From Prochlorococcus sp. AG-402-G06 (GTDB taxonomy: Bacteria > Cyanobacteriota > Cyanobacteriia > PCC-6307 > Cyanobiaceae), in NCBI GenBank assembly GCA_003277985.1, contig QCHR01000003.1:1-64000 (forward strand): a DNA stretch of 64,000 bases, written 5' to 3'. The position numbers and the translations under genes were made by a program. Positions 48,756 through 50,099 of this stretch are shown here, one piece after another. How positions within the stretch are numbered: the first letter of the stretch is position 1; each line of letters opens with the position of its first letter. Under the pieces are notes generated by a model. It saw only the letters and a program-made list of their open reading frames with translations. It had not been told where the DNA came from and made no database searches.

Positions 48756-48962
48756 CTATTTTTCTTCTTCCCATTCCTCTTCAGCTTTATCGAGAATATC
48801 CTCAACAGTATTGTCAAAAGTTTCAGCTACTGACCTAAGCATTTTTGAAATAGTCTCATCTGGGCAAGCAAGGTCTTTCTGGATACTTTCAGCGCAGTCT
48901 TTTAGTTCTTCCCATGCATCTACCAGAACTTGAGAATCTACTGGTTTCCAATCTTCTGACAT
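48756..48962 (-). CDS. Small acidic helical protein
   Basis: A 68-residue soluble protein (MSEDWKPVDSQVLVDAWEEL..., then KDLACPDETISKMLRSVAET and a Glu-rich tail). The frame is open 13 codons further, but a strong Shine-Dalgarno (GGGAGG, 48971-48976) sits just before ATG 48962, so I use that start. Helical, with two cysteines (one in DCAES, one in LACPDE). Function unknown. Confidence 0.6.
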   Translation of the reverse strand: MSEDWKPVDSQVLVDAWEELKDCAESIQKDLACPDETISKMLRSVAETFDNTVEDILDKAEEEWEEEK

Positions 48963-48976: not shown

Positions 48977-49095
48977 TAAGAATAGTTTTGACATATTTCA
49001 ATACTCATTAATTTTAGCTTTTACTCAGACAAAGACTGTCTTGATTTGTTCATTTTAAAGATATGTGCTGACTCAACTGCTAATTTGCCTGATCT

Positions 49096-49251
49096 ATGAA
49101 AAAATCAGCGAAAGAAATTCAATGGCTTCGCTTAAAAGCCGAGGCATCATTGAATAAGAGTTCTCAACTCCAACAAACACTAGCTCAGAATGAAGCAACC
49201 CTCTCAAGAAAGGAAAATCAAAAGGTTACCGAGAAGTCAGTAAAAAGATAG
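49096..49251 (+). CDS. Coiled-coil microprotein, cassette copy 1
   Basis: A 51-residue ORF (MKKSAKEIQWLRLKAEASLN..., SQLQQTLAQNEATLSRKE...). By hand alignment it is about 32 of 51 identical, without gaps, to the ORF at 49746. Heptad-like Leu/Gln spacing suggests a short coiled coil or helical protein. Equal lengths and conservation at both ends support real coding. No membrane span. It is followed by the MLLPKPVRP micro-ORF at 49344. Confidence 0.65.
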   Translation: MKKSAKEIQWLRLKAEASLNKSSQLQQTLAQNEATLSRKENQKVTEKSVKR

Positions 49252-49343
49252 TATTTACTGTATCAAGAAGTTTCAAACCTTTAATTCTTATTTACGTATT
49301 TAGAAAAACACCTATAAATGAATATAGAGATCGAATTTCAATT

Positions 49344-49403
49344 ATGCTTTTGCCTAAACCAGTAAGACCTGTTGATTCAGAGAAGAAAGGAAAGCTAGAA
49401 TAG
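49344..49403 (+). CDS. MLLPKPVRP micropeptide, cassette copy 1
   Basis: A 19-residue ORF (MLLPKPVRPVDSEKKGKLE). The first nine residues are identical to the ORF at 49977, including the Pro-x-Pro-x-Arg-Pro core, and the two stand in the same order behind paralogous partners. The duplication is the main argument that these tiny ORFs are real. No clear Shine-Dalgarno. A terminator follows at 49462. Confidence 0.5.
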   Translation: MLLPKPVRPVDSEKKGKLE

Positions 49404-49461
49404 TTTAACAACTTTTGAACTATTGATTTCAAACTTTGTCTAGTGTTGTAATTTATTAATT

Positions 49462-49502
49462 AAAAGAACGTAGGTATAAATTCGTATCTTCGTTCTTTTT
49501 TT
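49462..49502 (+). terminator. Intrinsic terminator after cassette copy 1
   Basis: Arms AAAAGAACG (49462-49470) and CGTTCTTTT (49491-49499) with further T residues past 49500. It ends the first cassette (49096-49403). Confidence 0.75.
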
Positions 49503-49745
49503 ATGTTAATTCATATCTTTCAAATATTAAAACACAATGACTGATTATAAGTAGATATAAGAAATTGATTTATTCACTGCGACGTAAACCATATAGAGGT
49601 AATTATACATTTATCAACAGATAGTGATTTCATCTATTGACATCTTGAATATCTTTGGCAAATTTGTTCGTGTATTCTGAAAATAAATTTAATTGGTACA
49701 TGTCTTTTGTTTATTTAGGAAAAATACAATCTTTTCATTTTCACT
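49503..49745. other. Non-coding gap between cassette copies
   Basis: Upstream region of cassette copy 2. No gene, repeat or tRNA-like structure that I can support; it presumably holds the promoter of copy 2. Confidence 0.5.
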
Positions 49746-49901
49746 ATGAAAACTGCATCTAAAGAACTTCAAAAGCTTAGATCGATGGCTGAAACCTCAT
49801 TGAATAAAACAGCTGAACTTCAGCAGGTTTTAGCTCAAATAGAAGCAAATCTCTCAAGAGCTGAATGCCAAAAAGTTACTGAAAAAATAAATAAAAAATA
49901 A
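49746..49901 (+). CDS. Coiled-coil microprotein, cassette copy 2
   Basis: A 51-residue ORF (MKTASKELQKLRSMAETSLN..., ELQQVLAQIEANLSRAE...). Paralogue of 49096-49251 with the same length; conserved blocks are SLNK, LQQ-x-LAQ, LSR and QKVTEK. Helical, with a Leu/Ala repeat. Reading on past its TAA stop, the frame stays open through to the next micro-ORF (49977), so it would extend if the stop were read through. Confidence 0.65.
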   Translation: MKTASKELQKLRSMAETSLNKTAELQQVLAQIEANLSRAECQKVTEKINKK

Positions 49902-49976
49902 ATATTGGACTTCGTATCATTAATTGCAGATTCCAAAATAGGTCTTGAGTATAAAAAGATTAAATATTCTATTATT

Positions 49977-50042
49977 ATGCTTTTACCTAAGCCTGTACGT
50001 CCTCTAGATAGAAACGATAAAAATAAAAAAATATTAATGTAA
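49977..50042 (+). CDS. MLLPKPVRP micropeptide, cassette copy 2
   Basis: A 21-residue ORF (MLLPKPVRPLDRNDKNKKIL). Same nine-residue head as the ORF at 49344, behind the same kind of partner. It lies in the same reading frame as the 49746 ORF with a stop between them. The tail is basic and Asn-rich. A hairpin (50053-50080) follows. Confidence 0.5.
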   Translation: MLLPKPVRPLDRNDKNKKILM

Positions 50043-50052
50043 ATAATTAGAA

Positions 50053-50080
50053 TTTTTATTAGTAAAGCCCCTAATAAAAA
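50053..50080 (+). terminator. Hairpin terminator after cassette copy 2
   Basis: Arms TTTTTATTAG (50053-50062) and CTAATAAAAA (50071-50080), loop TAAAGCCC. A T-run begins at 50093, rather far away, so termination efficiency is uncertain. Confidence 0.55.
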
Positions 50081-50099
50081 CTTCTAACAAAATTTTTTT

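Follow-up and report, generated by a model that had tools for sequence, protein, structure and literature searches.

At one locus of a Prochlorococcus genome a reading frame for a 51-residue protein is followed by the frame of a micropeptide, and the same pair is then met a second time, in tandem. The question that this arrangement raises is whether the two pairs are copies of one two-part system or whether their parts are genes in their own right. The repeat lies within a stretch of 64,000 nucleotides, here referred to as the window. All four open reading frames (ORFs) were found where the first-pass annotation had placed them, and folding confirmed the hairpin that it had noted 3′ of each micropeptide (Table 1). 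The 51-mers of copies 1 and 2 are, as it had counted, identical at 32 of 51 residues in an ungapped comparison, and the first nine residues, MLLPKPVRP, are common to both micropeptides. A six-frame search of the window's own genome with one 51-mer recovers the other copy only (E = 1.8e-11 or 1.6e-11, depending on the query), and with an E value near 1e-11 between the copies in a whole-genome search the repeat cannot be ascribed to chance.

Table 1. Features of the repeat locus and its divergent neighbour (positions in the window)
Feature	Position	Strand	Remarks
68-aa acidic protein, MSEDWKPVDSQVL...	48756..48962	-	divergent neighbour; found at each of the 30 loci
51-aa ORF, copy 1	49096..49251	+	degenerating paralog; open in the window, broken at 14/30 loci
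Promoter-like region of micropeptide 1	49259..49319	+	near-invariant in 30-locus alignment
Box TCAAGAAGTTTCAAAC within promoter-like region of micropeptide 1	49263-49278	+	
TTTACG, promoter-like region of micropeptide 1	49291-49296	+	followed by 16-nt spacer
TATAAA, promoter-like region of micropeptide 1	49313-49318	+	
Micropeptide 1, MLLPKPVRPVDSEKKGKLE	49344..49403	+	consensus in relatives MLLPKPVRPVDSEKKGKDx; intact at 30/30 loci
Putative intrinsic-terminator hairpin 3′ of micropeptide 1	49462..49500	+	T-run; fold -14.1 kcal/mol
Conserved block CTATTGACAT...TTTGGCAAATTT 5′ of copy-2 51-aa ORF	49634..49664	+	alignment of 28 loci
51-aa coiled-coil-like protein, copy 2	49746..49901	+	conserved paralog; dN/dS 0.10; one long helix; high-light relatives
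Micropeptide 2, MLLPKPVRPLDRNDKNKKILM	49977..50042	+	paralog lost at 20/28 loci
Hairpin 3′ of micropeptide 2	50047..50087	+	fold -10.8 kcal/mol

Locus and distribution

Thirty loci, that of the window included, were compared, all of them at one syntenic position. The relatives that carry the locus are, as far as they are named, Prochlorococcus single-cell genomes, and the clade of the 30 genomes is probably low-light clade I. The gene order is an FtsH-like protease, a peroxiredoxin, the divergently oriented gene for a 68-residue acidic protein, copy 1 and copy 2; the protease and the peroxiredoxin could be identified wherever the locus was long enough to contain them (26 loci), and the 68-residue gene at all 30. 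The two copies are usually spaced about 600 bp apart, and in one genome (G030) copy 2 is absent from the locus. Characteristic residues tell the copies apart (SRKENQKVTEKS versus SRAESQKVIEKT, and VDSEKKGKDx versus NNNDKNKK), and each copy forms an orthologous group of its own at the shared syntenic position. Since these residues distinguish the copies, the duplication, as read from the alignments, is older than the split between the genomes that have both copies.

The loci were collected by a search for the start motif of the micropeptide, a step that genomes with a diverged start would escape; an independent search, with a DNA profile built on the promoter and peptide region, recovered the same 30 genomes. 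This profile gave strong matches in 30 of the 41 genomes of the genus and no convincing match among 359 other genomes of the family, and the micropeptide-1 unit thus appears to be found only in one genus. Micropeptide 1 went undetected in 11 of the 41 genus genomes (several of which are incomplete, and 10 of which are also without the flanking 68-residue gene), and the genus can therefore do without it. Two candidate matches were judged to be due to chance: micropeptide relatives in the picocyanobacterial genus g6 (L104-L111), a frame without a start codon with E values of 0.2-2, and a likeness of the micropeptide start to the start of rnpA in G036 (E = 0.003), where matches of similar score in the genus lie in a different gene. 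Near position 1500 of L104-L111 a stretch, PVRPVDAWKGGKDEEN, is common to eight genomes and lies in the startless frame, of 23 codons.

The 68-residue acidic protein has no match in Pfam; its gene, present at every locus compared, is missing along with the micropeptide from the 10 genomes mentioned, and a distant relative of the protein is encoded in G028 (L167:791-973). Between this gene and copy 1 lies a conserved block (window 49020-49060, ACTGTCTTG.TTTCTTCATTTA.ATGAAA) that persists also at loci with a broken copy-1 ORF.

Coding selection on micropeptide 1

The reading frame of micropeptide 1, which is 17-19 residues long across relatives, is intact at 30 of 30 loci and its substitutions are nearly all synonymous, with pS 0.52, pN 0.016 and pN/pS 0.03, a ratio that, like the others given here, is pairwise, pooled over related genomes and descriptive, not a formal test. 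As controls, pN/pS is 3 and 10.6 in the other two frames, 0.6-1.2 in the upstream or promoter region and about 1 in the 3′ untranslated region (UTR). In many genomes an in-frame stop lies four codons 5′ of the ATG (the open frame has 22), which marks this ATG as the start. The LPKPVRP motif is near-invariant, the KKGK tail is conserved as much as the prolines, and the peptide is without a transmembrane segment. The first-pass annotation had proposed that the micropeptides be checked for conservation of the ATG and frame and for neutral rates of substitution; micropeptide 1 withstands this check, its ATG and frame being conserved and selection at the protein level being strong. That its conserved frame is subject to purifying selection on the protein is well supported by these alignments.

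Putative transcription signals

About 80 nt 5′ of the micropeptide-1 ATG are near-invariant and read TCAAGAAGTTTCAAAC...TTTACG-16 nt-TATAAAT...ATAGAGATTAGATTTTTATC-ATG, with the box GTTTCAAAC just upstream of the putative −35 element. Mean pairwise identity is about 0.82-0.83 in this upstream region versus 0.46 in the 3′ UTR; it is 0.81 in the leader of about 29 nt and 0.66 at the third codon positions of the micropeptide. Since a generic sigma-70 scan, which found no excess of promoters here, does not list the micropeptide-1 site, it is conservation that marks the region as promoter-like. The upstream box was no commoner elsewhere in six genomes than a reversed control, and a regulator site at this position is therefore not backed by a regulon. 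On the other side of the frame most relatives have a similar hairpin with a T-run, 36-63 nt beyond the stop codon, and its stems co-vary (GAACAT/ATGTTC, GAATAT/ATATTC, CACAGG/CCTGTG and GAGCATAT/ATATGCTC). Micropeptide 1 would thus form an autonomous transcription unit of about 175 nt and, because it has a promoter-like region and a putative terminator of its own, does not on this evidence look like a second cistron in a fixed cassette of two ORFs.

Opposite fates of the two copies

According to the first-pass annotation both parts of the cassette were retained after duplication, which was taken to mean that both are translated. Among the loci of the 30 relatives, however, the four ORFs fare differently, and the two parts are not kept as a unit. 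The copy-1 51-residue ORF is broken by stops, frameshifts or loss of the start at 14 of 30 loci, as scored by eye from the translations, and the breakage is scattered: a tree of the two neighbouring genes, FtsH and peroxiredoxin (26 genomes and 2.3 kb, several forks being unresolved), requires no fewer than 10 changes. In copy 2 it is the 51-residue ORF that is conserved, and micropeptide 2 is recognisable at only 8 of 28 loci, once with a TTG start, under a weaker constraint (pN/pS 0.25, with 0.14 in the head and 0.33 in the tail). The window genome, where none of the four ORFs has yet been lost, is in the minority among the 30 loci. Retention of both parts in both copies is hence contradicted by the relatives, and the argument for coding holds in part: for micropeptide 1, which keeps its ATG, its frame and its 17-19 residues, and for the copy-2 51-residue ORF, which is likewise a real gene (dN/dS 0.10). 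The conserved block 5′ of the latter is probably its promoter or regulatory region.

Because it is the micropeptide that is retained in copy 1 and the 51-residue ORF in copy 2, the parts are, on the evidence of the alignments, separable genes, and the duplicated halves decayed reciprocally. The separation extends to individual genomes: G004 has both 51-residue ORFs broken and micropeptide 1 kept, G030 has micropeptide 1 and no copy 2, and genomes of genus g18, presumably high-light Prochlorococcus, have the 51-mer without the micropeptide, all of which makes a fixed two-part system unlikely. Genomes with the peptide and without the 51-mer also offer an easy control. The reciprocal decay is still under way, some genomes having all four ORFs to this day, which makes this an unusually clear natural example of subfunctionalisation in bacteria.

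The 51-residue protein

The copy-2 protein is modelled by AlphaFold2 as one continuous helix (mean pLDDT 93.5) that stands by itself; a comparison with solved structures gave no meaningful match. Pfam and NCBIfam scans of both 51-mers and micropeptide 2 returned no profile match above the cut-off. In genus g18 the family occurs once per genome (E about 1e-14), for example at L155:2038-2184 and L160:2030-2179 (G191 and G245), where the distance from pstB to the single-copy relative downstream is about 390 bp. The MLLPKP peptide was absent beside this locus in the g18 genomes inspected, and a small hydrophobic ORF of about 29 residues, which reads MKNFPFLPFLIFAGALITTATVGLPVFNS in L156, lies between pstB and the 51-residue relative. 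A functional link of the 51-mer to phosphate was dropped, as the pstB of the window genome is about 48 kb off and has no adjoining 51-mer. In G030 (L164:1843-2170) and G023 (L163:2015-2348) a 51-residue relative directly follows an ORF for a 58-residue one-helix membrane protein, and the gap of 1 nt between them suggests translational coupling. A phage origin was also considered and rejected: no relatives of the 51-mer were found in 50,697 phage records or IMG/VR, and the one match to the micropeptide pattern in viral contigs lies in a GC-rich sequence that is otherwise dissimilar and was judged unrelated.

Proposed explanation and alternatives

The reading that we favour, at a probability of roughly 55%, is that a tandem duplicate underwent reciprocal loss and left a free-standing micropeptide-1 gene whose product acts in trans as a ligand. 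The ancestral unit would have consisted of a gene for a 51-residue coiled-coil protein and a gene for a peptide of about 19 residues, and would have been duplicated in tandem before the radiation of this Prochlorococcus clade; by reciprocal loss, copy 1 would then have become the micropeptide specialist and copy 2 the specialist for the 51-residue protein. Coding selection on micropeptide 1, its independence from the 51-mer and the conservation of its promoter-like region and terminator can be read from the alignments; its transcription, the level of its translation and its function as a soluble ligand are what we infer. In the free-standing gene a transcript of about 175 nt would start from the promoter-like region, carry a short leader and 17-19 codons and end at the intrinsic terminator, and the product of the gene, MLLPKPVRPVDSEKKGKDx, would be a free, soluble peptide of the cytosol. 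Its LPKPVRP motif and basic KKGK tail may bind in trans, as a ligand in extended form, to a conserved partner, which one could imagine to be a protein or an RNA-protein assembly, and its level may be set at transcription through the GTTTCAAAC box upstream of the −35 element. That micropeptide 1 is at once among the shortest independently transcribed, protein-selected genes known in cyanobacteria and a diffusible ligand of 17-19 residues that regulates a conserved target, and that it arose when a unit of two genes was duplicated and its copies split reciprocally, is a more tentative claim, to which we give less than even odds.

Among the alternatives the best placed, and still an unlikely one, is a dual-function sRNA, in which the transcript would be an sRNA as well as the message of the peptide, in the manner of SgrS/SgrT or Yfr6, and could be one of Yfr106-108 of NATL2A. 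Its estimated size of 175 nt and its clade restriction fit this reading, as do the precedent of Yfr6 in the genus (PMC2518516) and the detection of the low-light-specific Yfr106-108 in intergenic regions of NATL2A (PMC7368042). Constraint within the transcript is, however, limited to leader, codons and terminator stem, with third codon positions (0.66) and the 3′ UTR (0.46) free to vary; beyond promoter and terminator the leader is the only conserved non-coding part, and an Rfam search gave no match.

Somewhat less probable is that the peptide is no regulator and instead a very small, permanent component of some large complex such as the ribosome or ATP synthase. Its extreme sequence constraint and its basic, extended character would suit a structural subunit, but it is confined to part of one genus and absent from related genomes, the extra conserved box in its promoter region suggests regulated expression, and a role in a photosystem would want the transmembrane segment that it lacks.

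We think it distinctly improbable that micropeptide 1 is a leader peptide acting in cis, with ribosomes that pause on the proline-rich MLLPKPVRP governing the terminator and hence the reading of the copy-2 51-residue gene. A short peptide with three prolines, a terminator 36-63 nt after its stop codon and a gene downstream on the same strand are what such a leader would present. Attenuation would also call for conservation of a gene further along the transcript, yet the peptide is kept in G030 where copy 2 is missing and in G004 where copy 2 is broken, and copy 2 has a conserved upstream block of its own. Moreover, the charged KKGK tail is as conserved as the prolines that precede it, and a conserved antiterminator between stop codon and terminator seems unlikely, identity there being only 0.46.

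Least probable by far is the two-part cassette implied by the first-pass annotation, with products that cooperate as toxin and antitoxin or as protein and peptide partner: the parts are adjacent in both copies and both paralogs of each are open in the window genome, but partners of this kind should be kept together, and here loss is reciprocal, G004 has the peptide without any intact 51-mer and high-light genomes have the 51-mer without the peptide.

Comparison with known systems

The leader peptides MgtL and TrpL have fewer than 20 residues, MgtL being proline-rich, and are followed by a terminator-like hairpin. Unlike these, micropeptide 1 is without a conserved downstream gene and persists where the downstream gene is missing.

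No paper describing micropeptide 1 was found in the open-licence literature. Its transcript might be among the low-light-specific, intergenic sRNAs Yfr106-108 of NATL2A (PMC7368042). A known parallel is Yfr6 of Prochlorococcus MED4, an ncRNA with a conserved frame of 33 residues (PMC2518516): in both cases a short Prochlorococcus transcript (here a predicted one), outside annotated genes, encodes a conserved micropeptide. Yfr6 differs in that its whole RNA is conserved and that it overlaps Yfr14 (PMC2518516), whereas micropeptide 1 has 17-19 residues and shows constraint on codons, leader and terminator only; the DNA profile found no relative of it in high-light genomes.

In its proposed mode of action micropeptide 1 may be likened to the small cyanobacterial regulators AcnSP (44 residues), PirA, the glutamine synthetase (GS) inactivating factor IF7 (65 residues) and NblD (66 residues), soluble small proteins that bind an enzyme or a signalling protein (PMC7760959). 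This is an analogy in how they work, and these regulators have known partners and at least 44 residues, AcnSP being the smallest in a 2020 review (PMC7760959). A 2016 survey gives PetN, with 29 residues, as the shortest conserved protein annotated in cyanobacteria (PMC5126843). The gene of micropeptide 1 resembles that of PetN in being very short, conserved and stand-alone, but PetN, which is conserved throughout the cyanobacteria, belongs to the membrane subunits of cytochrome b6f, whereas micropeptide 1 is shorter, predicted to be soluble and restricted to a clade. The clean, synonymous-only variation across 30 genomes suggests that streamlined Prochlorococcus retain still smaller genes that annotation has overlooked.
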